From: Streptomyces liliifuscus
GTDB taxonomy: Bacteria > Actinomycetota > Actinomycetes > Streptomycetales > Streptomycetaceae
Length of the DNA: 64,000 bases
Assembly (NCBI RefSeq): GCF_016598615.1
Contig: NZ_CP066831.1
Span: 3,472,001 to 3,536,000, forward strand
Reading direction: 5' to 3'
Below, piece by piece: positions 17,170-33,052 of the stretch. The notes under the pieces were generated by a model. It was not told the origin of the DNA. It searched no databases and worked only from the letters and a program-made list of their open reading frames with translations. The first letter of the stretch is position 1, and the number at the start of each line of letters is the position of its first letter. The position numbers and the translations under genes were made by a program.

Positions 17170-17176
17170 AATGACG

Positions 17177-17249
17177 TACCCCCGACCGGATTCGAACCGG
17201 CGCTACCGCCTTGAGAGGGCGGCGTGCTAGGCCGCTACACAACGGGGGC
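17177..17249 (-). tRNA. tRNA-Glu (CTC)
   Basis: 73 nt. The acceptor stem is GCCCCCG/CGGGGGT with a G1-U72 wobble. The anticodon loop is CTCTCAA, giving CTC, on a CCGCC/GGCGG-type stem. The T-arm is CCGG-TTCGAAT-CCGG. CCA is not encoded. It is the last gene of the five-tRNA cluster before the shared terminator. Confidence 0.95.
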
Positions 17250-17278
17250 CCAGGATCTTGCGTTTCCGCAGATCCGAG

Positions 17279-17350
17279 CTGGTCTACCAGGACTCGAACC
17301 TAGAATGACGGTACCAGAAACCGTAGTGTTGCCAATTACACCATAGACCA
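17279..17350 (-). tRNA. tRNA-Gln (CTG)
   Basis: 72 nt. The acceptor stem is TGGTCTA/TAGACCA with discriminator G. The anticodon loop is TTCTGGT (CTG) on a fully paired ACGGT/ACCGT stem. The T-loop is TTCGAGT. Confidence 0.95.
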
Positions 17351-17370
17351 ATGTGGTTCATACCAGTTCG

Positions 17371-17443
17371 TACCCCCGACCGGATTCGAACCGGCGCTAC
17401 CGCCTTGAGAGGGCGGCGTGCTAGGCCGCTACACAACGGGGGC
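17371..17443 (-). tRNA. tRNA-Glu (CTC), second copy
   Basis: 73 nt, identical to the copy at 17177-17249 over the whole gene. Confidence 0.95.
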
Positions 17444-17505
17444 CCTAGCGATCCTGCATGAGAATCAGCGGGTGCGACCCGGACTGTCTCCCTGGGAAGG
17501 ATCTG

Positions 17506-17578
17506 TACCCCCGACCGGATTCGAACCGGCGCTACTGCCTTGAGAGGGCAGCGTGCTAGGCCGCTACACAACGGGGGC
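17506..17578 (-). tRNA. tRNA-Glu (CTC), third copy with compensatory stem change
   Basis: 73 nt, the same as the other two except that a C-G pair of the anticodon stem is replaced by T-A (CTGCC/GGCAG). Both sides change, so the structure is kept. The anticodon is CTC. Confidence 0.95.
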
Positions 17579-17620
17579 TTTGCGGAGTTGATCTCCGCGG
17601 TTGCAGATGAGCTCTGCGAG

Positions 17621-17692
17621 CTGGCCTACCAGGACTCGAACCTAGACTAACGGAACCAGAAACCGTCGTGCTGCCAATTACACCATAGGCCA
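17621..17692 (-). tRNA. tRNA-Gln (CTG), first gene of the cluster
   Basis: 72 nt. The acceptor stem is TGGCCTA/TAGGCCA. The anticodon loop is TTCTGGT (CTG). Position 31-39 is a T-T mismatch (ACGGT versus TCCGT), unlike the copy at 17279, and the acceptor also differs at one pair. It is likely functional, since U-U or U-pseudouridine at this position is tolerated. Confidence 0.92.
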
Positions 17693-20986: not shown

Positions 20987-22462
20987 CTAGGCGGTCAGCT
21001 TCGCCAGCGCCGCGTCGATACGGGCCAGCGTCTTCTCCTTGCCCAGGATCTCCAGGGACTCGAAGAGCGGCAGGCCGATCGTGCGGCCCGTGACGGCGAC
21101 GCGGACCGGGGCCTGCGCCTTGCCGAGCTTGAGGCCGTGCTCCTCGCCGGCGGCCAGGACGGCCTCCTTGAGGGAGTCGGGCGAGGTCCAGTCGGCCGCG
21201 TCCAGCTTCTCGCGGGCCGTACGGAGCAGCGCGTCGCTGCCCTCCTTCATGGCCTTCGTCCAGGACGCCTCGTCGAAGGCCGGCTCCGGCAGGAACAGGA
21301 AGTCGACGTTGTCCGTGATCTCGGAGAGGACCTTGAGGCGGGTCTGGGCGTGCGGGGCGATCGCGTCCCACTGGGCCTGGTCGAAGTCCTCGGGCGCCCA
21401 GGGCGCGAAGGGGGCCTTCAGCCAGGGGGCGCAGCGCTCGGCGAAGTCCTTCACGTCGAGCAGGCGGATGTGGTCGGCGTTGATCGCCTCGGCCTTCTTG
21501 AGGTCGAAGCGGGCCGGGTTCGGGTTCACGTCCGTGACGTCGAAGGCCGCGACCATCTCGTCCATCGAGAAGATGTCCTGGTCGGCGGAGAGCGACCAGC
21601 CGAGCAGGGAGAGGTAGTTGAGCAGGCCCTCCGGGAGGAAACCGCGCTCCCTGTAGAGGTTCAGCGAGGACGACGGGTCGCGCTTGGAGAGCTTCTTGTT
21701 GCCCTCGCCCATCACGTACGGCAGGTGCCCGAAGGCGGGCACCGACTTGGCGACGCCCAGCTCGGCGAGCGCCTTGTAGAGGGCGATCTGGCGCGGGGTG
21801 GAGGAGAGCAGGTCCTCGCCGCGCAGGACGTGGGTGATCTCCATCAGGGCGTCGTCGACGGGGTTCACGAGCGTGTAGAGCGGGGCTCCGTTGGCTCGTA
21901 CGATCCCGTAGTCCGGGACGTTCTCCGGGAGGTACGTGATCTCGCCGCGGACCAGGTCCCTGAAGGTGATCGTCTCGTCGGGCATGCGGAAGCGGACGAT
22001 GGGGGCGCGGCCCTCGGCCTCGTACGCGGCCTTCTGCTCGGCGGTCAGCTCGCGGCAGTGGCCGTCGTAGCCGGACGGCTTGCCGGCGGCGCGGGCGGCG
22101 TCGCGGCGGGCGTCCAGCTCCTCCGTGGAGCAGTAGCAGTGATAGGCGCGGCCCGCCTCCAGGAGCTTGGCCGCCACATCGCGGTAGATGTCCATCCGCT
22201 GCGACTGGCGGTACGGCTCGTGCGGGCCGCCGACCTCGGGGCCCTCGTCCCAGTCGAAGCCCAGCCAGCGCATCGAGTCGAGCAGCTGGCCGTACGACTC
22301 CTCGGAGTCGCGGGCCGCGTCGGTGTCCTCGATGCGGAAGACCAGGGTGCCCTCGTTGTGCCGGGCGAACGCCCAGTTGAACAGGGCGGTGCGGACCAGG
22401 CCCACGTGGGGGTTGCCGGTCGGGGACGGACAGAAACGTACGCGGACGGTCGCGTTAGCCAC
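20987..22462 (-). CDS. gltX: Glutamyl-tRNA synthetase, 491 aa
   Basis: GltX charges tRNA-Glu and, in organisms lacking GlnRS, also tRNA-Gln as a substrate for the GatCAB amidotransferase. The HIGH-type motif is in [19 protein letters not shown], the second signature is KLSKRD, and the [12 protein letters not shown] zinc-like region is present. The GTG at 22462 overlaps the upstream hydrolase stop by 8 bp, so expression is coupled. Five tRNA genes for Glu and Gln lie about 3.3 kb downstream on the same strand. Confidence 0.96.
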
Positions 22463-23243
22463 GCTTGATCACCTTGTTGGTGAGAGTGCCGATGCCTTCG
22501 ATGGTGACGGCGACCTCGTCGCCGACAGTGAGCGGGCCGACCCCCGCGGGGGTGCCCGTGAGGATCACGTCGCCGGGGAGCAGCGTCATGGCCTCGGTGA
22601 TGTTGACGATCAGGTCCTCGACGGAGTGGATCATCTCGCTGGTGCGGCCCAGCTGGCGCTGTTGGCCGTTGACCGTGCACATGATGGTCAGGTCGGACGG
22701 GTCGAGGTCCGTCTCTACCCAGGGGCCGAGCGGGCAGGAGGAGTCGAAGCCCTTGGCCCGCGCCCACTGCTTCTCGCGCTTCTGGACGTCACGTGCGGTG
22801 ACGTCGTTGGCGCAGGTGTAGCCGAGGATGACGTCCTTGACCCGCTCGCGCGGGACCTCGCGGCACATCCGGCCGATGACGACGGCCAGCTCGGCCTCGT
22901 GGTGCACCTCGTTGGAGAAGGAGGGGTACGCGATCTCGTCGCCGGGGCCGATCACCGAGGTGGACGGCTTGAAGAAGGCGAACGGGGCGTCGGGCACCTC
23001 GTTGCCCATCTCCCTGGCGTGCTCCGCGTAGTTGCGGCCGAAGGCCACGACCTTGTTGGGGAGCATGGGCGGCAGGAGCCGGACCTTGTTCAGCGGGACC
23101 TTCGTGCCGGAGAGCTCGAAGTCCGTGAACGGGATGCCCTTGATGATGTCGAGCACGAGCCCGCCGGTCGACCCAGGAGGGCTCTCGCCCTCGACCGCGC
23201 CGAACGCGACGTTGCCGTCGATGGAGAACCTGGCGATGCGCAC
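22455..23243 (-). CDS. Fumarylacetoacetate hydrolase-family protein, 262 aa
   Basis: FAH-family enzymes hydrolyse or decarboxylate beta-diketo acids with a divalent metal. Metal ligands are visible as [11 protein letters not shown] (Glu, Glu) and [12 protein letters not shown] (Asp), with the [11 protein letters not shown] motif near the C-terminus. The N-terminal region ([19 protein letters not shown]) is the usual small cap. It starts with GTG at 23243. Its overlap with gltX is conserved in Streptomyces by memory. The substrate could be an acylpyruvate; not resolved. Confidence 0.9.
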
Positions 23244-23349
23244 GAGATGCCTGCGCCCCTCACTGAGCTGGCTGGAGTCTGACGCTCCAGGCTAACGCGG
23301 GAGAGGGGCGCGACCTCGCGGAACTGCGGCTGGATGGGGCGTGGGACCG

Positions 23350-23538
23350 TTACTCCGCCGCCATGGCGGCGACCGGGGCGTCCATCAGGATCGTGCGCCG
23401 GGGGTTGGCGGTCTGTGCGGGGAGCTCGACGGAGTGCTCCTGCTGCTCCGGCGTACGCAGTTCTTCGGCGTCCTCGAGGTGCGCCAGCGTCGTGCGTCGC
23501 GGGTTGGCTATGTTGAGGAACATCATCGTCGTCTTCAT
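23350..23538 (-). CDS. Small peptide with duplicated NPRRT motif, 62 aa
   Basis: Read from ATG at 23538 it begins MKTTMMFLNIANPRRTTL and, after an acidic stretch (EDAEELRTPEQQEHSVE), repeats the motif as TANPRRTIL before a small hydrophobic end. The two copies of A-N-P-R-R-T-x-L are 32 residues apart. A longer form from ATG at 23619 (89 aa) is possible; neither start has a clear Shine-Dalgarno. I do not recognise a family with known function. The acidic leader-like centre and short repeated motif could fit a modified-peptide precursor or a small docking protein, but no modifying enzyme is adjacent. Confidence 0.55.
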   Translation of the reverse strand: MKTTMMFLNIANPRRTTLAHLEDAEELRTPEQQEHSVELPAQTANPRRTILMDAPVAAMAAE

Positions 23539-23639
23539 CTGCGGTTTCGGACCCTGTCGGTATGGGCGCCGGGCGGCTTCGGAAACCGCCGCGCGGGCGC
23601 GGGTTGTCGGATTTGCCATCCCTGTAAAGCGTCAGGCTA

Positions 23640-24140
23640 AACATGCGCTTCCCTGTGGAACGCGTGAAGGCGACGTGATCGTCGTGTGAGTTTCCTCACT
23701 CACAGGTAGACAATCCGGTCAATGTGGACTCTCAACTCGCCCTACCGAAACGGACATTGCTCCACTGAAGCCCCTATTCCGCTCCTGATCATGGCGACTG
23801 GGACACCGCTTGCAGGCGAATGACTCGTGCACCTGTGTCCGATATAAACGGAATCGCTTTCCACATGCCGTAACACCGCCTTCACTAGGTGTCACGATGG
23901 TCACAGCATGACCCATGGGCCTTGTTGGAGATCCGGCACTGTGCTGGAATTCCACGGAACCGCCGCGGGATCGAACCGGCGCGCAAGGGGCGCGAACGCA
24001 GCGCCGAGTGGCGGCGGGAAGGGGGGCCTGCGCCGGTCACTCACGACCACACATGGGGGCGCGTTCAGGGCGCTCCCAAGACGCCGACACCGTCTCGCCG
24101 TTCACGCGGAGAGGCGCCTGGTCCAGAGGTTGCGACGCTA
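23640..24140. other. 500-nt region upstream of conservon 1
   Basis: The region is AT-richer than its surroundings from about 23690 to 23900. An inverted repeat TGTGAGT-N6-ACTCACA lies at 23685-23704. From 23889 the cvnA1 frame is open without stops, but no ribosome-binding site supports a start there. It likely holds promoters for the divergent NPRRT gene and cvnA1; I could not place boxes with confidence. Confidence 0.5.
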
Positions 24141-27100
24141 GTGCAGGGACGTTTCAAGAGGGATGGCAGCGCTTCGGCGGAGCCGGAGCCGCACGGCGGG
24201 ACCGGCACCGGTTCCTCGCCCCAGCACGCCCAGAACCAAGGACCGGCAGGGGCCGGCGACGGGGGTGAGCGCTCTTCGCGCCCCGGTGCGCCCAAGGGTG
24301 CCCAGGGCAAGGGCGGTCCGACCGCGGTGACCGGTGGCCCGGGGGCCCCGCCCGCCGCACCGCCCAAGGCCAAGAACCCCAGTGGCCCCGGCTCGCGAAT
24401 AGCTCTGCGCAACTGGCGCATCTCCACGCGTCTGGTGTCGCTGCTCGCGCTGCCCGTGGTCGCCGCCACCTCGCTGGGCGCCCTGCGCATCAGCGACACG
24501 ATGGACGAGATCCAGCAGCTCGAGAACATGAAGCTGCTGACCGACATGACGAAGCAGGCGACCGAGCTCGCCGCCGCGCTCCAGGAGGAGCGCGACAAGT
24601 CGGCCGGTCCGCTCGCCAACGGCACGAAGGCGTCCGACTTCACCGTCAAGGGCGTCCGCGACAAGACGGACCGTGCGCGTGCCGCCTTCATGGAAGGCAC
24701 CCACGAGCTCGACGACGCGGGCAACAACGAGAACCTCGACGGCGTCCGGGACAACGTGGTGGCCATCGCCACCCAGCTGAACACCCTGAGCGGCATCCGC
24801 AACAACGCCTTCCAGGACGAGAAGAACTCCTCCCAGTCGGTCGAGTCGTACCACCGGCTGATCGAGCAGCTGCTCGGCCTCTCCCAGGACATGGCCGAGG
24901 CGACCAGCAACCCGGAGATGATCCAGCGCACGCGCGCCCTGGCGGCCTTCTCCACCGCCAAGGAGTACGCGTCCATCCAGCGTGCGGTCATCGCGGCGGC
25001 CCTGCCGGCCACCGACGCCACGTACGGCGATCTCTCCGAGAACGACCGGCAGTACGGCCTCTCGGCCTTCGAGAACCAGAAGGCCGAGCTCACCAGCTTC
25101 GCCAGCATCTACGAGGGCAACTCGCGCGAGCTGACGAAGCCGCTCGACGAGCCGAGCCCGACCATCAAGGCGGCCGACACCTACGCGGAGCGTGTGCTCC
25201 GGCGTGAGAACGGTCTGCAGCTGCGTGACAAGCGCTCGTACCTGGACTGGGTGGACGCCGACTCGTCCAAGATCCAGGAAATGTCGAAGATCGAGCTCAC
25301 GCTGCTCAACGAGATGGAGCAGAAGGCCCGCGAGCTGCGCAACGAGGCCGAGCAGGAAGCGATCATCTCCGGTGCGCTGATCCTGCTGGTGCTCGGTGTC
25401 TCGCTGGTCGGCGCCTTCGTGGTGGCCCGCTCCATGATCCGCTCGCTGCGCCGCCTCCAGGACACCGCGACGAAGGTCGCCCAGGACCGGCTGCCCGAGC
25501 TGGTCAAGCAGCTCTCCGAGTCCGACCCGCAGGACGTCGACACGTCCGTCGAGTCGGTCGGTGTGCACTCCAAGGACGAGATCGGCCAGGTGGCCGCGGC
25601 CTTCGACGACGTGCACCGCGAGGCCGTACGACTCGCCGCCGAGCAGGCCCTTCTGCGAGGCAACGTCAACGCGATGTTCACCAACCTCTCGCGCCGCTCC
25701 CAGGGCCTCATCCAGCGTCAGCTCTCGCTCATCTCCGAACTGGAGTCCCGCGAGGCCGACCCGGACCAGCTGTCCTCACTGTTCAAGCTCGACCACCTCG
25801 CGACCCGCATGCGCCGTAACGGCGAGAACCTCCTCGTCCTCGCCGGTGAAGAGCCCGGCCGCCGCTGGACCCGTCCGGTCCCGCTGGTCGACGTGCTCCG
25901 CGCCGCCGCCTCCGAGGTGGAGCAGTACGAGCGCATCGAACTGTCGGCGGTGCCCACCACCGAGGTCGCCGGCCGCGTGGTCAACGACCTCGTGCACTTG
26001 CTCGCCGAGCTGCTGGAGAACGCCACGTCGTTCTCCTCCCCGCAGACCAAGGTCAAGGTCACCGGTCACGCGCTGCCCGACGGCCGCGTACTGATCGAGA
26101 TCCACGACACCGGTATCGGCCTCTCGCCCGAGGACCTCGCGGCGATCAACGAGCGGCTCGCCTCGCCGCCCACCGTGGACGTCTCGGTCTCCCGCCGCAT
26201 GGGTCTGTTCGTGGTCGGCCGGCTGTCCCAGCGCCACGGCATCCGCATCCAGCTCCGCCCGTCCGACTCCGGTGGTACGACCGCGCTGGTCATGCTGCCC
26301 GTCGATGTCGCCCAGGGCGGCAAGAAGGTTCCGGGCAACAAGCAGGGCCAGGGCGTTCCCAACAGCGGCGGCCCCGCCGCCGCGCAGGCCGCGGCCGGTG
26401 TCGCGGCGGCCCGCCGGGGCGGCGCCGGAGGCGGTCCCGCCCTCGGCGCGGGTGCTCCCACCGGCGGCAACGGCGGACGGCTCAACGCCGGTCCGCAGCG
26501 CGGCCAGGTCGGTGCCGGCACCGGAGCGCGTGCCGCGCTGCCCAGGCCGGACGCGGGCGGCCGCCCGGGCGGACCGGGTGGATCGCGTGGCCCCCAGCAG
26601 CCCCCGCAGGGCAGGCCGGCCCCGGCCGGTGCCGGTGCCCCGCAGGCCTTCAACGACTTCGGCGGCAACGACTCCGGCCGGCAGGACGCATTCGGCGGCG
26701 GACGCCAGGACACGATGGGCGGCAACAACCGCGGCCCCGTGCCCCCGCAGCCCCAGCAGCGTCCGACCGGTGGCGACCAGGGCCGCCGTCCGCCCCAGCA
26801 GCCGCAGCTGCCGCCGCGCGGTGGTCCGCGTGCCGAGCTGCCCGGCGGAAACCCGCAGCCGCGGGTGCCCAGCTGGAGCGACGACAACGCGCAGCCGCCG
26901 GTGCCGCGTTCCTCGATGGACGCCCCGCGCGGCCACGAAGAGCCGGACGCCACCTCGCAGATGCCCCGGATCAACGACCGGCAGGGACCGGGTGGACCCG
27001 CGTCCACCTCGGAGTTCCCGCGGATCGACGACCGTCAGGGTGCCGGTTCCACGGGCGAGTACCCGCGGCCGGACTACGACGCCCCGCGTTCCGGCGCGGG

Positions 27101-27926
27101 TGCGCAGCAGGGCAACGGACAGTTCGTCCGCCCGGACGTCTTCGGTACGCCGAATCCTTCCGGCGCCGGCCAGAACCCGTCCGCGGGCGGCCAGTACAAC
27201 CGCCAGGACCCCGCCGCCACCGGCCAGTTCCCGATGCCCGGCTACGACGGTGGTTCCACCGGTCAGTACGCGGCACCGGGTCAGGACGTTCAGCAGAGCC
27301 ACACCGGCCAGTTCCCGGCGCCGAACCACGGCGAGCGGCAGGGCGGCGGCACCGGGCAGTTCGAGCGTCCCGGCGCCAATGGCTCGAACGGCACCAACGG
27401 CTCCCGCCCCCAGCGTCCGCAGTCGCGTCGGCGTCCCGCGCTCCCCCAGGAGCCCGAGGCACTGCCGCCGGCGACGGGTCCCGGTGACGGGCGTACACCG
27501 CTGTACGACACCCTGGAGACCAACTGGTTCAACCAGGCCCAGGCGGGCAACGGCGAGCAGGCACCGCAGCAGCAGCCCGCACAGGCTGCTCCCGCGGCAC
27601 CGCAGCGTCCGGCGCCCGCCGCATCAGGGTCCGCCTCCTGGCGGACCACCCCCAATGACGAACTCGGCCGGCAGGCCGAGCGGGTACGCCAGCCCTCCGC
27701 GGGTGGCGTGACCGTCTCGGGTCTGCCGCGCCGGGTCCCCCGCGCGAACCTCGTCGCGGGGACGGCTCAGCAGCAACAGCACCAAACCGGTCCGCAGGTC
27801 TCGCGTGCGCCCGATGACGTACGCGGCCGGCTGACCAATCTTCGTAGGGGCATCCAGCAGGGCCGGCAGGCCGGCAACGGCCAGACCGGCAGCTTCCCCA
27901 GCCCCACTCACCAGCAGGAGCGTTAG
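24141..27926 (+). CDS. cvnA1: Conservon sensor protein CvnA1, 1261 aa
   Basis: CvnA proteins are membrane sensor-kinase-like parts of actinobacterial conservons. After a Gly/Pro-rich cytosolic start come TM1 (about 96-114), an extracytoplasmic nitrate/nitrite-sensor-like helical domain (116-406), TM2 (407-430), a HAMP-like segment, a DHp-like helix with His in LDHLATRMRRNGENLL (about 552), and an HATPase domain with N box ELLENATSFSS and G1 HDTGIGLS. The last 530 residues are Pro/Gly/Gln-rich and disordered, with many TGQF/TGQY/SEFP-type repeats. They end in a conserved block GGVTVSGLPRRVPRANL...APDDVRGRLTNLRRG. GTG at 24141 has AGAGGTTG 8 nt upstream, the same as cvnA2. Confidence 0.9.
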   Translation: MQGRFKRDGSASAEPEPHGGTGTGSSPQHAQNQGPAGAGDGGERSSRPGAPKGAQGKGGPTAVTGGPGAPPAAPPKAKNPSGPGSRIALRNWRISTRLVSLLALPVVAATSLGALRISDTMDEIQQLENMKLLTDMTKQATELAAALQEERDKSAGPLANGTKASDFTVKGVRDKTDRARAAFMEGTHELDDAGNNENLDGVRDNVVAIATQLNTLSGIRNNAFQDEKNSSQSVESYHRLIEQLLGLSQDMAEATSNPEMIQRTRALAAFSTAKEYASIQRAVIAAALPATDATYGDLSENDRQYGLSAFENQKAELTSFASIYEGNSRELTKPLDEPSPTIKAADTYAERVLRRENGLQLRDKRSYLDWVDADSSKIQEMSKIELTLLNEMEQKARELRNEAEQEAIISGALILLVLGVSLVGAFVVARSMIRSLRRLQDTATKVAQDRLPELVKQLSESDPQDVDTSVESVGVHSKDEIGQVAAAFDDVHREAVRLAAEQALLRGNVNAMFTNLSRRSQGLIQRQLSLISELESREADPDQLSSLFKLDHLATRMRRNGENLLVLAGEEPGRRWTRPVPLVDVLRAAASEVEQYERIELSAVPTTEVAGRVVNDLVHLLAELLENATSFSSPQTKVKVTGHALPDGRVLIEIHDTGIGLSPEDLAAINERLASPPTVDVSVSRRMGLFVVGRLSQRHGIRIQLRPSDSGGTTALVMLPVDVAQGGKKVPGNKQGQGVPNSGGPAAAQAAAGVAAARRGGAGGGPALGAGAPTGGNGGRLNAGPQRGQVGAGTGARAALPRPDAGGRPGGPGGSRGPQQPPQGRPAPAGAGAPQAFNDFGGNDSGRQDAFGGGRQDTMGGNNRGPVPPQPQQRPTGGDQGRRPPQQPQLPPRGGPRAELPGGNPQPRVPSWSDDNAQPPVPRSSMDAPRGHEEPDATSQMPRINDRQGPGGPASTSEFPRIDDRQGAGSTGEYPRPDYDAPRSGAGAQQGNGQFVRPDVFGTPNPSGAGQNPSAGGQYNRQDPAATGQFPMPGYDGGSTGQYAAPGQDVQQSHTGQFPAPNHGERQGGGTGQFERPGANGSNGTNGSRPQRPQSRRRPALPQEPEALPPATGPGDGRTPLYDTLETNWFNQAQAGNGEQAPQQQPAQAAPAAPQRPAPAASGSASWRTTPNDELGRQAERVRQPSAGGVTVSGLPRRVPRANLVAGTAQQQQHQTGPQVSRAPDDVRGRLTNLRRGIQQGRQAGNGQTGSFPSPTHQQER

Positions 27927-28349
27927 TTGAGCCAGATGAGCCAGGCGGCACAGAACCTCAACTGGTTGATCACCAACTTCGTTGACAACACCCCCGGGGT
28001 GTCCCACACCGTCGTCGTTTCCGCCGACGGACTCCTTCTGGCGATGTCCGAGGGCTTTCCGCGCGACCGCGCCGACCAGCTCGCGGCCGTCGCCTCCGGA
28101 CTCACTTCACTCACGGCCGGTGCCTCCCGGATCTTCGAGGGCGGCACCGTCGCCCAGACGGTCGTCGAGATGGAACGCGGCTTCCTCTTCCTGATGTCCG
28201 TCTCGGACGGATCGTCCCTCGCGGTCCTCTCCCACCCGGACTGCGACATCGGCCTTGTCGGATACGAGATGGCTCTGCTCGTCGACCGTGCGGGTGCGGT
28301 GCTCACGCCGGATCTGCGGGCCGAACTTCAGGGCAGCCTGCTTCACTAG
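27927..28349 (+). CDS. cvnB1: Conservon roadblock/LC7 protein CvnB1, 140 aa
   Basis: This is a Roadblock/LC7-fold protein (VVVSADGLLLAMSEGFPRD, then AVASGLTSLTAGASRIFEGG and LVGYEMALLVDRAG). It is the conservon subunit thought to bridge the sensor and the GTPase-like CvnD, by analogy to MglB. TTG at 27927 directly follows the cvnA1 stop and has AGGAG 6 nt upstream; an ATG at 27936 gives a 3-residue shorter form. It is nearly identical to CvnB2. Confidence 0.92.
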   Translation: MSQMSQAAQNLNWLITNFVDNTPGVSHTVVVSADGLLLAMSEGFPRDRADQLAAVASGLTSLTAGASRIFEGGTVAQTVVEMERGFLFLMSVSDGSSLAVLSHPDCDIGLVGYEMALLVDRAGAVLTPDLRAELQGSLLH

Positions 28350-28468
28350 TCAGGTTTTACGTACGTCCGAATTTCACCGAACGTCCGCACAATCCGTCGG
28401 CCGCCCTCCCCCCACCGGCCCCGTCAGACGGCACGACTGACCGACCTGCTGTCCCGCCCGGAGGATCA

Positions 28469-28867
28469 ATGACCCCGCCCACCGCCTCTCATGATCCGTA
28501 CGCACAGCCGTACGAGGATGAGGGCGACCAGCCGCTGGTACGTCCGTACGCGATGACCGGCGGCCGGACCCGGCCGCGCTACCAGCTCGCCATAGAGGCA
28601 CTGATCAGCACAACGGCCGACCCGGCGCAGCTGATGGGGCTGCTCCCGGAGCACCAGCGGATCTGCCACCTCTGCCGTGAGGTGAAGTCGGTGGCCGAGG
28701 TGTCGGCCCTGCTGTCCATGCCCCTGGGCGTGGCACGGATTCTCGTCGCGGACCTCGCGGAGGCCGGACTCGTCGCGATCCACCAGCCGGGTGGCGACGA
28801 GAGCAATGGCGGCGCCCCGGACGTGACACTGCTCGAAAGGGTGCTCAGTGGACTTCGCAAGCTCTGA
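28469..28867 (+). CDS. cvnC1: Conservon DUF742 protein CvnC1, 132 aa
   Basis: DUF742 proteins have a winged-helix-like core: LVRPYAMTGGRTRPRYQLAIEAL, HQRICHLCREVKSVAEVSALL, PLGVARILVADLAEAGLVAIHQP. A Cys-x-x-Cys (CHLC) is present. The function is unknown; the fold suggests DNA- or protein-binding. The ATG follows GGAGGATCA. The 3' end overlaps cvnD1 by 20 bp. A 119-nt gap separates it from cvnB1. Confidence 0.92.
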   Translation: MTPPTASHDPYAQPYEDEGDQPLVRPYAMTGGRTRPRYQLAIEALISTTADPAQLMGLLPEHQRICHLCREVKSVAEVSALLSMPLGVARILVADLAEAGLVAIHQPGGDESNGGAPDVTLLERVLSGLRKL

Positions 28868-29423
28868 CGGAGGTCGGGCGACCACCTCCGCGAAGATCGT
28901 GGTGGCGGGTGGCTTCGGCGTCGGCAAGACCACGTTCGTGGGTGCCGTCTCCGAGATCAACCCGCTGCGCACCGAGGCCGTCATGACGTCCGCCTCGGCG
29001 GGCATCGACGACCTCACCCACACCGGGGACAAGACGACGACCACCGTCGCCATGGACTTCGGCCGTATCACCCTGGACCAGGACCTGATCCTGTACCTGT
29101 TCGGTACGCCCGGCCAGGACCGTTTCTGGTTCATGTGGGACGACCTGGTACGCGGCGCGATCGGTGCCGTCGTGCTCGTGGACACCCGCCGTCTCGCCGA
29201 CTGCTTCCCCGCGGTCGACTACTTCGAGAACAGCGGACTGCCGTTCGTCATAGCCCTGAACGGCTTCGACGGACACCAGCCGTACACCCCCGACGAGGTC
29301 CGCGAGGCCCTGCAGATCGGCCCGGACGCCCCGATCATCACGACGGACGCCCGCCACCGCGCGGACGCCAAGTCGGCGCTGATCACCCTGGTCGAGCACG
29401 CCTTGATGGCTCGTCTGCGCTAG
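28848..29423 (+). CDS. cvnD1: Conservon P-loop GTPase-like protein CvnD1, 191 aa
   Basis: This is a small Ras-like nucleotide-binding protein. The P-loop is GGFGVGKTTFVG, switch region TTTVAMDFG, G3-like FGTPGQDRFWFMWDD, and G4-like ALNGFDG in place of NKxD. In conservons, CvnD interacts with CvnB and CvnA at the membrane. The GTG start lies inside the cvnC1 end with a 20-bp overlap. A hairpin terminator follows at 29618. It is almost identical to CvnD2. Confidence 0.93.
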   Translation: MDFASSDGGRATTSAKIVVAGGFGVGKTTFVGAVSEINPLRTEAVMTSASAGIDDLTHTGDKTTTTVAMDFGRITLDQDLILYLFGTPGQDRFWFMWDDLVRGAIGAVVLVDTRRLADCFPAVDYFENSGLPFVIALNGFDGHQPYTPDEVREALQIGPDAPIITTDARHRADAKSALITLVEHALMARLR

Positions 29424-29522
29424 GGATCGTCGTGCGAAGGGCTATGTCCTGGCAGGCCTGGCACACAAGTTGGCAACGCCGTACGGCAGTTGTCGTAGAC
29501 GCACTGGAGCCGGCTGTGTCGT

Positions 29523-29551
29523 TTGACACGGTCGGCCTTGGTGTTCATAAC
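29523..29551 (+). promoter_or_regulatory. Consensus-like promoter between the conservons
   Basis: A perfect TTGACA (29523-29528), a 17-nt spacer and CATAAC (29546-29551). It lies before the terminator at 29618, so it would not directly drive cvnA2 unless readthrough occurs. Confidence 0.5.
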
Positions 29552-29557
29552 GTTTCG

Positions 29558-29647
29558 ACAGAGATATCGAGTGGCACCGACACGCGTCGCGGTCGTCTGA
29601 TGCCGCTGTGCTCACAAAGGCCCCGCCTTTTGGCGGGGCTCGCTCTT
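29558..29647 (+). ncRNA. Candidate small RNA between cvnD1 and cvnA2
   Basis: The region is bounded by the promoter-like TTGACA-N17-CATAAC and the terminator hairpin. The transcript would be about 90 nt, and no protein of usual composition is encoded. Alternatively the hairpin only ends the cvn1 mRNA and the promoter belongs to cvn2. Confidence 0.3.
29618..29647 (+). terminator. Terminator of conservon 1
   Basis: GGCCCCGCC-TTTT-GGCGGGGCT with a following CTCTTTAT. The 386-nt gap continues to cvnA2 with a second hairpin CACTCGGAA/TTCCGAGTG at about 29676-29701 ending in TTTGG. Confidence 0.8.
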
Positions 29648-29809
29648 TATGACCGTTTTATCTAGGGCTTACATCACTCGGAATCCTTGGTTCCGAGTGT
29701 TTGGACGAGCACACCCTGACGTGCTGGAATGCCAGAACTGCCCAGTAGTAAGGGCCGGAAGACACACGCGGCACGACGAAGGTGCACACGCCGAGAGGTT
29801 GTTGGTCGA

Positions 29810-32800
29810 GTGAGGCGTAGCAAGAACGGTCCCGAGCCGTCGGCACGGGGCAACTTCACCCCGCCGCCGCGCGGAGCGGCACCCGCACATGTGTCCGGCT
29901 CGGAGCCGGCGGCCCCACCCCCGAAGAGCGGCGGACGTCTGTCCCCGCGCAACTGGCGTGTGCCGACCAGGCTGAACGCCATTCTCCTCATACCCGTGAT
30001 CGTCGGGCTCGTCATGGGCGGCTTCCAGGTGAAGAGCTCCATCGACACCTGGCAGGAGGCGCAGGACGCGGAGAAGGTCGCCAAGATCGTCGACGCGGCC
30101 GGGCAGTACGCCGAGGCGCTCCTCAACGAACGTGACGTCTCCGCCCAGCCGCTGCTGGAGGGCGACCGCGACAACGCGACGGTCAAGCAGGCCCGCGCCT
30201 TCACGGACGCGAAGCAGGACGCGTTCCACAAGGAAGTCGTCGGAATGCCGGCCGGTCAGGGCCTGGAGCGCCGGCTGAACCTGGTGGAGCAGGCCGAGCC
30301 GACGCTGCCCCAGGTCCGCAAGACCGCCTTCACCACCGCGATGGACCCGACGAAGACCGAAGAGGGCTACGTCACCGTCGAGCACCTCCTCATGGAGTTC
30401 TCGAACGAGCTGGGCCTCGGCACGGGCAACATCACGAGCTACGGCCGCACCGTGTACGCCGTCGCCCTGTCGAAGGGTGCCGCCTCGCTGCAGCGCTCGA
30501 TCGGCATGCACCTCCTGGTGAAGCCCAGCAGCAACGAGAAGATCCGCAGGCAGCAGGTCACGGCCTTCACGTCGTACGCCTATCTCGAGAACGTGGCCGT
30601 CCAGGAGTACGTCTCCGGCGGTACGGCGCAGGACGCGGCGCGTCTCAAGCAGGTCATGGCCGAGAAGGAGGCCGACGGCAAGAAGCTCGCCGCCGAGGCC
30701 AAGAGCAAGACCGAGGCGGCCGGCGGCACCTACAAGGCCCCGCCCTCCATGACCGGCATGATCCAGGCCATCGCCACCGGGGCCTCCCCCAGCGACCTGG
30801 CCCAGCAGGGCGTCACGCCCGAGACCTGGATGGCGGCCTCCACCCTCAAGTTCGACGGCTACAGCGAGGTCGAGCAGGAGCTCATCAACCGGGCGGTGAG
30901 CGACGCGGGCGACATCGCCACCGACGCCCAGCGCGACGCCTTCGTCAACGGCGCCATCGTCATCGTGGCCCTGCTCGCCGCCTTCATCATCGCCGGCCTC
31001 ATGGCACGCCAGATGAGCCGCTCGATGCGCCAGCTGCGCAACGCGGCCTTCGGTGTCGCCGAGCAGCGCCTGCCGATGCTGGTCGACCAGCTCTCGCGCA
31101 CCGACCCGGGCCGGGTCGACACCCGGGTCACGCCCATCCCGATCACCACCACGGACGAGATCGGCGAGGTCGCCCGCGCCTTCGACCAGGTCCACCGCGA
31201 GGCCGTACGACTGGCCGCCGAGCAGGCCCTGCTCCGTGGAAACATCAACGCGATCTTCACCAACCTGTCGCGCCGCAACCAGTCCCTGATCGAGGGCCAG
31301 CTGACCCTCATCACCGAGCTGGAGAACAACGAGGCCGACCCGGACCAGCTGGAGAACCTCTTCCGGCTGGACCACCTCGCGACCCGTATGCGCCGCAACG
31401 GCGAGAACCTCCTGGTCCTCGCCGGCGAGGAGCCTGGCCGCCGCTGGGACCAGCCGGTCCCGCTGGTCGACGTGCTGCGCGCCGCCTCCTCCGAGGTGGA
31501 GCAGTACGAGCGCATCGAGCTCTCCGGCGTACCGGAGGCCGAGATCCACGGCCGCGCGGTCACCGACCTCGTGCACCTGCTGGCCGAGCTCCTGGAGAAC
31601 GCGACCACGTTCTCCTCGCCGCAGACCAAGGTCCGCGTCACCGCGACCCGTCTCCCGGACGGCCGCATCATGGTCGAGATCCACGACAAGGGCATCGGCC
31701 TCACCGCCGAGGACTTCGCGGACATCAACCACAAGCTGGCCAACCCGCCGACCGTCGACGCCGCGATCTCGCAGCGCATGGGTCTGTTCGTGGTCGGCCG
31801 GCTGTCCGACCGGCACGGCATCCGCGTCCAGCTGCGTCCCTCGGGCGAGCAGGCCGGTACGACCTCGCTCGTCATGCTGCCCGACATCATCACGCACGGT
31901 GGTGGCGGCGAGCAGGCACCGCAGCGCGACGAGTTCACCGTCTCGCAGATCATCCCGGAGCAGCAGCCCTTCGGCGGCGAGGAGTTCCAGAGCGCCGGCC
32001 AGCAGCCGATGCGTACGGCCGCGGAGCTGGGCTTCGACGACAGCCGCTACGCCGAGGTCCCGGACGACATACGCGAGCTGGACCCCGTGGGCCGTTCGCT
32101 GATGCGTGAGGAGCGCCGGGCGGCCCTGGAGGCCCAGACGCACGGCGAGCTGGAGGGCGCGTCCCCGTCGTTCAACGGCGAGTTCGACCCGCAGCAGGGC
32201 TACGACAACGGTCAGCAGGCCTTCGACAACGGCGCAGCGGCGTACGACAACGGCGCGGCCGCGTACAGCGAGGCGCCCGCGTACGACCAGCAGACGCCGT
32301 ACGAGGAGCCGCAGCAGGCGTCGTACGACGAGACGTACTTCCCGGCCAATGGCGGGTACCCGGAAACCCCCTATGCGGAGCCCGTCCAGGAGGAGCCCCA
32401 GCCGGCCCACGCTCCCGCGCGGGACAGCTTCTCGGCCTTCGAGGAGCAGTCCTACCAGGACGACTGGCCGCAGCAGGACACGTACCAGAACGGCTACCGT
32501 TCCGAGTACGCTCCCGAAGCGGAACCCGTGCAGGCCGCTGACGTGGCCGAGCAGGACCGCGTAGGCTTCGAGCGTCCGGGAACGGCCTCTCCCGCCGCCC
32601 ACGCGCTGACCGACGCCGGGCTTCCGCGCCGCGGATCCACCGACGCCGGGCTTCCCCGCCGCGGCTCCACCGCGAGCGCGGGCGGCCAGCAGTCCGTGGG
32701 CCAGGAATCGCCGGCTCCCTTCGGTGGCGGCAACGACGGCAACTCGAGCGGCGGCAAGGGCGACTGGCGGTCGAACAACGACCAGATGTGGCAGCGCGCC

Positions 32801-33052
32801 GAGCAGCTGAAGAAGCCCAAGGCGGGCGGGGTCACCTCCTCCGGCCTGCCGAGGCGTGTGCCCAAGGCCAATCTGGTCGAGGGCACCGCGGAATCGACCC
32901 CACAGGGCGGCCCCCAGGTCTCCCGCGCTCCCGAGGACGTCCGGGGCAGGCTGAGCAACCTGCGCCGAGGGGTCCAGAGGGGGCGTAACGCAGGAAGCGA
33001 AACGAACGGCCAGGGCTTCGGTCCTGACAGCACCTACAACCAGGAGCGTTAG
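29810..33052 (+). CDS. cvnA2: Conservon sensor protein CvnA2, 1080 aa
   Basis: The architecture is the same as CvnA1: basic/Pro-rich start, TM1 (NAILLIPVIVGLVMGG), long extracytoplasmic helical domain, TM2 (GAIVIVALLAAFIIAGL), HAMP, DHp-like LDHLATRMRRNGENLL, and HATPase (ELLENATTFSS, HDKGIGLT). The sensor domain has little visible identity to that of CvnA1, while kinase-like parts are almost identical. The tail is acidic and Gln/Tyr-rich with YDNG/YDQ repeats and a duplicated AGLPRRGST, and ends with the conserved GGVTSSGLPRRVPKANL...APEDVRGRLSNLRRG block. GTG at 29810 is chosen for the AGAGGTTG 8 nt upstream. Confidence 0.9.
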   Translation: MRRSKNGPEPSARGNFTPPPRGAAPAHVSGSEPAAPPPKSGGRLSPRNWRVPTRLNAILLIPVIVGLVMGGFQVKSSIDTWQEAQDAEKVAKIVDAAGQYAEALLNERDVSAQPLLEGDRDNATVKQARAFTDAKQDAFHKEVVGMPAGQGLERRLNLVEQAEPTLPQVRKTAFTTAMDPTKTEEGYVTVEHLLMEFSNELGLGTGNITSYGRTVYAVALSKGAASLQRSIGMHLLVKPSSNEKIRRQQVTAFTSYAYLENVAVQEYVSGGTAQDAARLKQVMAEKEADGKKLAAEAKSKTEAAGGTYKAPPSMTGMIQAIATGASPSDLAQQGVTPETWMAASTLKFDGYSEVEQELINRAVSDAGDIATDAQRDAFVNGAIVIVALLAAFIIAGLMARQMSRSMRQLRNAAFGVAEQRLPMLVDQLSRTDPGRVDTRVTPIPITTTDEIGEVARAFDQVHREAVRLAAEQALLRGNINAIFTNLSRRNQSLIEGQLTLITELENNEADPDQLENLFRLDHLATRMRRNGENLLVLAGEEPGRRWDQPVPLVDVLRAASSEVEQYERIELSGVPEAEIHGRAVTDLVHLLAELLENATTFSSPQTKVRVTATRLPDGRIMVEIHDKGIGLTAEDFADINHKLANPPTVDAAISQRMGLFVVGRLSDRHGIRVQLRPSGEQAGTTSLVMLPDIITHGGGGEQAPQRDEFTVSQIIPEQQPFGGEEFQSAGQQPMRTAAELGFDDSRYAEVPDDIRELDPVGRSLMREERRAALEAQTHGELEGASPSFNGEFDPQQGYDNGQQAFDNGAAAYDNGAAAYSEAPAYDQQTPYEEPQQASYDETYFPANGGYPETPYAEPVQEEPQPAHAPARDSFSAFEEQSYQDDWPQQDTYQNGYRSEYAPEAEPVQAADVAEQDRVGFERPGTASPAAHALTDAGLPRRGSTDAGLPRRGSTASAGGQQSVGQESPAPFGGGNDGNSSGGKGDWRSNNDQMWQRAEQLKKPKAGGVTSSGLPRRVPKANLVEGTAESTPQGGPQVSRAPEDVRGRLSNLRRGVQRGRNAGSETNGQGFGPDSTYNQER

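Follow-up and report, generated by a model that had tools for sequence, protein, structure and literature searches.

Between the FAH and gltX genes and the divergent conservon gene cvnA1, a stretch of 64,000 nucleotides from Streptomyces liliifuscus (the window) carries a short open reading frame (ORF) whose product appears to contain the same eight-residue motif twice, which raises the question of what peptide is made there and what it might bind. The ORF is read from the minus strand (23350–23538), beginning with an ATG at 23538 and ending with TAA, and it was annotated as the coding sequence of a 62-residue, two-motif microprotein on the basis of the ORF reading, a conserved start codon, and the ratio of nonsynonymous to synonymous change (dN/dS). 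A further ATG at 23619 in the same frame would give a product of 89 residues, and the original prediction had left the length between 62 and 89. Comparison with 138 orthologues favors the shorter form. Residue 1 of that form is encoded by GTG in 90 orthologues and by ATG in 45 (135 of 138), two of the remaining three (loci L056 and L105) have an in-frame ATG a few codons upstream, and residues 2–4 (KTT) are invariant in all 138. The position of the 89-residue start has both an open frame and a start codon in just eight orthologues, and some in-frame start further upstream, ahead of any stop, is found in 55. An AGGG tetramer at 23552–23555 (minus strand) is by direct reading a possible ribosome-binding site, at the long spacing of 13 nt ahead of the start; a tetramer of the AGGG, GAGG, AAGG, AGGA, or GGGT type lies upstream of the gene in 137 of the 138 orthologues. 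The GC content at codon positions 1, 2, and 3 is 0.68, 0.48, and 0.94, and the dN/dS of the whole gene is 0.39. Together with the conserved start, the third-position GC content and the dN/dS suggest that the frame is translated. Judged by its position, the gene is probably SCO5545 of Streptomyces coelicolor.

The two copies of the motif were confirmed on the minus strand by matching a DNA pattern: copy 1, ANPRRTTL, spans residues 11–18 (23485–23508) and copy 2, ANPRRTIL, spans residues 44–51 (23386–23409). The distance from start to start is 33 residues and not the 32 given earlier. When the 62-residue protein was shuffled, two non-overlapping eight-residue windows agreeing at seven positions appeared in two of 20,000 shuffles. 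A degenerate DNA pattern for ANPRRTxL (Ala as GCS, Leu as CTS, and G or C as the third base of x, and so not covering every codon) matched twice in the 11.35-Mb genome, both times within this gene, and its reversed control did not match; by the pattern tested, the motif therefore occurs nowhere else in this genome. A looser pattern gave four matches, two of them elsewhere, against one for its control. Among the orthologues the consensus of both copies is [TI]-A-N-P-[RK]-R-T-x-[LV], with a spacing of 32–41 residues. The second Arg and the Thr of R-R-T are invariant at both copies in all 138, and the first Arg is replaced by Gln once in copy 1 and by Lys 15 times in copy 2. In the 19 sequences of alignment A2, A-N-P-x-R-T is invariant twice. 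The first Arg is Asn in one divergent copy, and in two divergent genera (six genomes, three each of g2 and g5) little can be aligned except two copies of TANPRRTx[LV]. With the divergent sequences added, the spacing extends to as much as 49 residues; the regular expression used to choose this extended set itself includes some of the motif, and the invariance seen in the set is therefore partly a product of selection, unlike that of the 138-orthologue tally.

The distribution of selection along the gene follows the motifs. With 4,000 random pairs drawn from the 138 orthologues, dN/dS was 0.003 for motif 1 and 0.113 for motif 2, compared with 0.605 for the linker and 0.676 for the tail; values of 0.42 and 0.46 were obtained at alignment residues 2–11 and directly after motif 1. 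The proportion of synonymous differences (pS) in the motifs (0.33 and 0.38) matches that of the whole gene (0.34), which argues that conservation there acts on the peptide rather than on a signal in DNA or RNA; the N-terminal stretch is lower (0.22). On this sequence evidence, selection acts at the protein level and is concentrated on the motifs. The linker (23410–23484, minus strand) has 25 residues here, of which seven are Asp or Glu and one is Lys or Arg. The acidic stretch that had been described is thus mildly acidic, and it is variable in both sequence and length, with a dN/dS of about 0.6 for its main part. The tail, earlier called hydrophobic, is the least conserved segment (dN/dS 0.68).

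Conservation beyond this strain was readily established, as the gene was found in 148 of 150 Streptomyces genomes at E ≤ 0.001. A first scan of genome contigs resulted in at least 421 related stretches, of which 80 were kept, and the 138 loci used throughout are best hits, mostly from close Streptomyces, after three weak ones (L002–L004) of 141 had been left out. At the family level, 56 of 61 genomes matched at E ≤ 0.01, and this number rose to 60 once divergent copies had been read; profile hits in G150, G166, G168, and G176 each proved to contain a two-motif ORF, leaving G163 as the sole family genome without one. In the order (147 genomes), all 132 genomes of the same genus matched and one of the 15 others did so weakly; the class gave 30 matches among 296 genomes, 28 of them within the genus and two weak; and the phylum gave 12 among 396, each from that genus. 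Outside Streptomycetaceae, no convincing homologue was found among the order, class, and phylum genomes sampled. Since the profile searches scored at most 43 candidates per genome in the order and at most 16 in the phylum, very divergent homologues may have been missed. The weak hit in the order, which falls in a different family (G495, E = 0.0014), was rejected, as it consists of short motif-like pieces (E = 0.007 and 0.02) with neither FAH nor cvnA1 alongside, and the weak class-level hits in G358 (E = 0.003) and G329 (E = 0.01) were taken as chance. Of the two Streptomyces genomes without a match, G001 is 79% complete and yielded just distant relatives of FAH, so that its locus was not seen, and G010 retains the locus but lacks the peptide. 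No paralogue was found in the S. liliifuscus genome, the other matches having E ≥ 0.45, or ≥ 0.38 with the profile. Plasmids and phages gave no match to the peptide, and in viral contigs eight stretches fit a peptide pattern, with no relative among them by tblastn. Among the genomes sampled, this is a single-copy gene specific to Streptomycetaceae.

The 62-residue protein had no match in Pfam, NCBIfam, or PADLOC at E values up to 1, and it belongs to no named family in these collections; a search of PDB sequences with the A2 profile gave a single match (E = 1.2), which was taken as chance. An AlphaFold2 model has a mean pLDDT of 57.5, a pTM of 0.16, and no helix that reaches four residues, the low pLDDT arising from the shallow input alignment of 26 similar sequences; the protein is probably mostly disordered by this prediction. 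A Tat signal peptide was considered for the twin arginines and rejected by direct reading, as polar AHLxDA follows motif 1 and the tail after motif 2 is short and variable.

Three ideas had been put forward for the peptide, namely a docking peptide, a phosphorylated adaptor, and a modified-peptide precursor. The first fits best with the predicted disorder, the variable linker, and the two near-invariant motifs. Because selection keeps two copies of the motif while most else drifts, a bivalent docking peptide is the best explanation, and we would give a probability of roughly one half to a disordered, bivalent docking microprotein whose partner most likely lies in the Cvn1 system. The mostly disordered chain would present two like short motifs on a flexible linker, and these two 'hands' would dock on, or bridge, the protomers of a partner that is a dimer. 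A pair of copies joined by a linker whose length changes would suit a symmetric dimer or a cluster. The maintenance of both motifs by selection in nearly all Streptomyces genomes implies some cellular receptor that reads the motif. A precedent is offered by LC8 (dynein light chain), a dimeric hub with bivalent short-linear-motif ligands. The LC8 ligands likewise combine disorder, two like motifs, and a linker of variable length, but their motif is different, and the receptor of the peptide described here is putative. The traits of a docking protein that are seen here are the two conserved short motifs and a predicted-disordered, fast-evolving chain (dN/dS 0.6–0.68 in linker and tail). Sda of Bacillus is a small folded modulator of a histidine kinase; the peptide would resemble it as a small cytoplasmic protein that may act on a kinase, whereas Sda differs in being folded. 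Were the docking reading correct, the peptide would operate in the manner of known bivalent docking peptides or of small modulators of kinases.

The conserved R-R-T also allows a different use of the motif, in which a basophilic Ser/Thr kinase phosphorylates the Thr after Arg-Arg in each copy and so makes or removes a binding site. The presence of R-R-T in both copies, with the second Arg and the Thr unchanged in every orthologue, is what such a phospho-adaptor would have. A kinase site, however, leaves the conserved A-N-P ahead of the Thr unexplained, and the Thr is never replaced by Ser at either site in the 138 orthologues, a strictness not usual at a plain phosphoacceptor site, although no test in itself. 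We regard this reading as unlikely.

The neighborhood of the gene suggests where a partner for a docking peptide might be sought. The predicted placement between FAH–gltX and cvnA1, divergent from the latter, was borne out by Pfam matches and synteny: downstream on the same strand lie an FAH-family hydrolase gene (22455–23243) and gltX, encoding glutamyl-tRNA synthetase (20987–22462), and cvnA1, encoding a histidine kinase with NIT, HAMP, and HATPase domains, is on the plus strand (24141–27926), its NIT domain matching with an E value of 1.7e-43. The seven neighbor proteins (20987–33049) match in Pfam as FAH, GltX, CvnA1, a roadblock protein, a DUF742 protein, an ATP/GTP-binding protein, and a second NIT-type kinase. 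Upstream and divergent cvnA1 is present in all 138 loci, at a distance of 555–663 bp in 133 of them, and 134 have FAH downstream in the same orientation, 72–1810 bp away; these distances run between the ends of tblastn matches rather than from start codons. In two of the four loci without FAH the contig ends, and in the other two no FAH was read within about 1.5 kb. Among 13 distinct divergent loci, cvnA1 is present in all 13, again in divergent orientation to the gene, and FAH in 11. Histidine kinases usually form dimers, as do roadblock proteins, and since cvnA1 accompanies the gene in every locus read, Cvn1 is the first place to look for a dimeric partner. That the partner is a Cvn1 component, either the histidine kinase CvnA1 or the roadblock protein CvnB1, is a tentative proposal drawn from position. 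The peptide would then be a cytoplasmic modulator of Cvn1 made from its own regulated promoter, and conservons would have gained a handle by which they could be approached.

The neighborhood may also have been merely inherited, with a bivalent docking or adaptor peptide acting on a partner unrelated to Cvn1, such as a growth, division, or translation protein of the family. We consider this somewhat less likely than the main reading; in its favor, G010 and G163 retain cvnA1–FAH–gltX without the peptide gene; the peptide can thus be lost while cvn1 stays, and with two such losses an obligate role in Cvn1 is disfavored. The near-universal presence of the gene in Streptomyces and conserved upstream elements of its own point the same way, and the lack of any such peptide noted at the tandem conservon 2 also counts against a link to Cvn1. 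Against a partner elsewhere stand the constant company of cvnA1 in all loci read (138 of 138 and 13 of 13) and the situation outside the family. In seven genomes of other families (of eight with FAH, G491 being left out because its FAH is at a contig end), about 6 kb upstream of FAH contained neither a cvnA1 homologue (E ≤ 1e-3) nor a two-motif ORF, so that in these seven loci, where FAH is not beside cvnA1, the gene was not found; two of the seven have a lone NPRR-like string within a short ORF.

A more specific version of Cvn1 docking is that the two ANPRRTxL hands clamp the CvnA1 dimer or CvnB1, perhaps mimicking the conserved GLPRRVP of the CvnA tail, and thereby set when Cvn1, a G-protein-like system, signals in development. 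We consider this doubtful; if it were true, it would provide a new motif–receptor pair, and conservons would gain regulators of a peptide class. The C-termini of CvnA1 and CvnA2 (cvnA2, 29729–33052) share SGLPRRVPxANLV and SRAPxDVRGRLxNLRRG. A match to the CvnA tail was found in 66 of 66 long loci, and these conserved C-terminal segments are probably a recognition tail of conservon kinases. The sequence likeness between this tail and ANPRRTxL extends little beyond P-R-R, so that mimicry would be a lead only.

Non-core proteins encoded with conservons provide the closest comparison for a modulator of Cvn1. CvnF and CvnE, such as CvnF8 of S. coelicolor, are likewise encoded with a conservon outside its core, and CvnF8 was shown to stimulate CvnA8 and so to modulate a CvnA histidine kinase, an activity that for the 62-residue peptide is supposed (PMC13343842). 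According to the same paper, CvnF and CvnE occur with CvnA proteins that lack sensory domains, unlike CvnA1 with its NIT domain (PMC13343842). CvnF carries a GAF domain and CvnE belongs to the cytochromes P450, in contrast to the peptide, which has neither a Pfam match nor a confident fold. An identity as CvnF or CvnE was therefore rejected, given the missing GAF or P450 match and the NIT domain of CvnA1.

Among published data on cvn1, a row of ScbR targets gives sco5544–5545, described as cvnA1 together with a putative protein that is uncharacterized (PMC4595836), cvnA1 is targeted by BldC and BldD and the cvn1 promoter is bound by WhiAB (PMC6428758, PMC5859096), and cvnA1/sven5239 is named in the legend of a WhiB ChIP figure (PMC4850268). 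In S. coelicolor, CvnA1 is reported to regulate antibiotic production and aerial mycelium positively (PMC9739842). Repression of cvn1 follows ppGpp synthesis (PMC2374992) and treatment with some cell-wall antibiotics (PMC3123327), and cvn1 also changes in an interaction (PMC12175524). A table of orphan proteins includes SCO5546 (PMC3224560), and the signal path of conservons is called poorly understood (PMC13343842). None of the passages cited here assigns a role to the peptide, and a literature search by locus tag (SCO5544–5547, and S. venezuelae and S. lividans tags that were mostly guessed), by motif, and by the palindrome described below returned nothing on it.

The remaining earlier idea, a precursor of a ribosomally synthesized and post-translationally modified peptide (RiPP) with two repeated core segments, would accord with the small size and the duplicated segment. 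It did not hold up: no precursor or leader family matched in Pfam or NCBIfam at E values up to 1, no maturase is among the seven neighbor proteins, the gene is single copy with fixed synteny, and the segments between and after the motifs are variable. We judge such a precursor to be highly improbable.

The region upstream of the gene contains conserved elements that may form its promoter. A palindrome, GTGAGGAAACTCAC (23686–23699, minus strand; also written GTGAGcAAACTCAC), is a predicted, probable regulator site conserved across loci, and TAGCCT at 23634–23639 (minus strand) is a probable −10 element by virtue of its fixed spacing from the palindrome. In 134 of the 138 loci the palindrome consensus GTGAGcAAACTCACA begins 59–60 bp ahead of TAGCNT, and a stricter form, GTGAG-N(4-10)-CTCAC, is present in 125; TAGCNT itself lies at varying distances from the start codon. 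Such constant spacing between palindrome and TAGCNT would suit a promoter under a regulator, the labels of −10 element and regulator being putative; a scan with the sigma-70 consensus reported no promoter in this region. The S. liliifuscus genome has two matches to the pattern GTGAGNNNACTCAC, against four for its reversed control, and as the pattern is no commoner than the control, no regulon is visible. Sites of the cyclic-AMP-receptor type have the form TGTGA-N6-TCACA, and the palindrome resembles these. In G010 (locus L178), the palindrome, as GTGAGCAAACTCAC, is kept 66 bp before a TAGCCT that now directly precedes FAH, as though the gene had been cleanly deleted; as G010 keeps it without the peptide, the palindrome may serve more than this gene.

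A second TAGCNT is found within 200 nt past the peptide stop codon in 103 of 138 loci, compared with 10 of 138 after one shuffle, and FAH thus seems to own a separate promoter. This bears on whether the ORF might be a leader peptide that controls the downstream FAH–gltX genes through attenuation, for which the shared strand, the position upstream of gltX, and the Glu and Gln residues of the linker here might speak. Those residues, however, lie in the part that varies while the motifs are kept, the distance to FAH is not fixed, no terminator-like site was found in 23100–24200, and Rfam had no match in 22900–24300. With a separate FAH promoter indicated as well, we judge a leader function to be highly improbable. 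Downstream of gltX and on the same strand, three genes for tRNA-Glu(CTC) and two for tRNA-Gln(CTG) form a cluster at 17176–17692. On the other side of the peptide gene, GGAATTCC (23946–23953) is conserved between it and cvnA1 and is perhaps part of the cvnA1 promoter, and the 5' region and first codons of cvnA1 (24083–24196) show very strong DNA conservation across 11 diverse loci, above that of the rest of the intergenic region.
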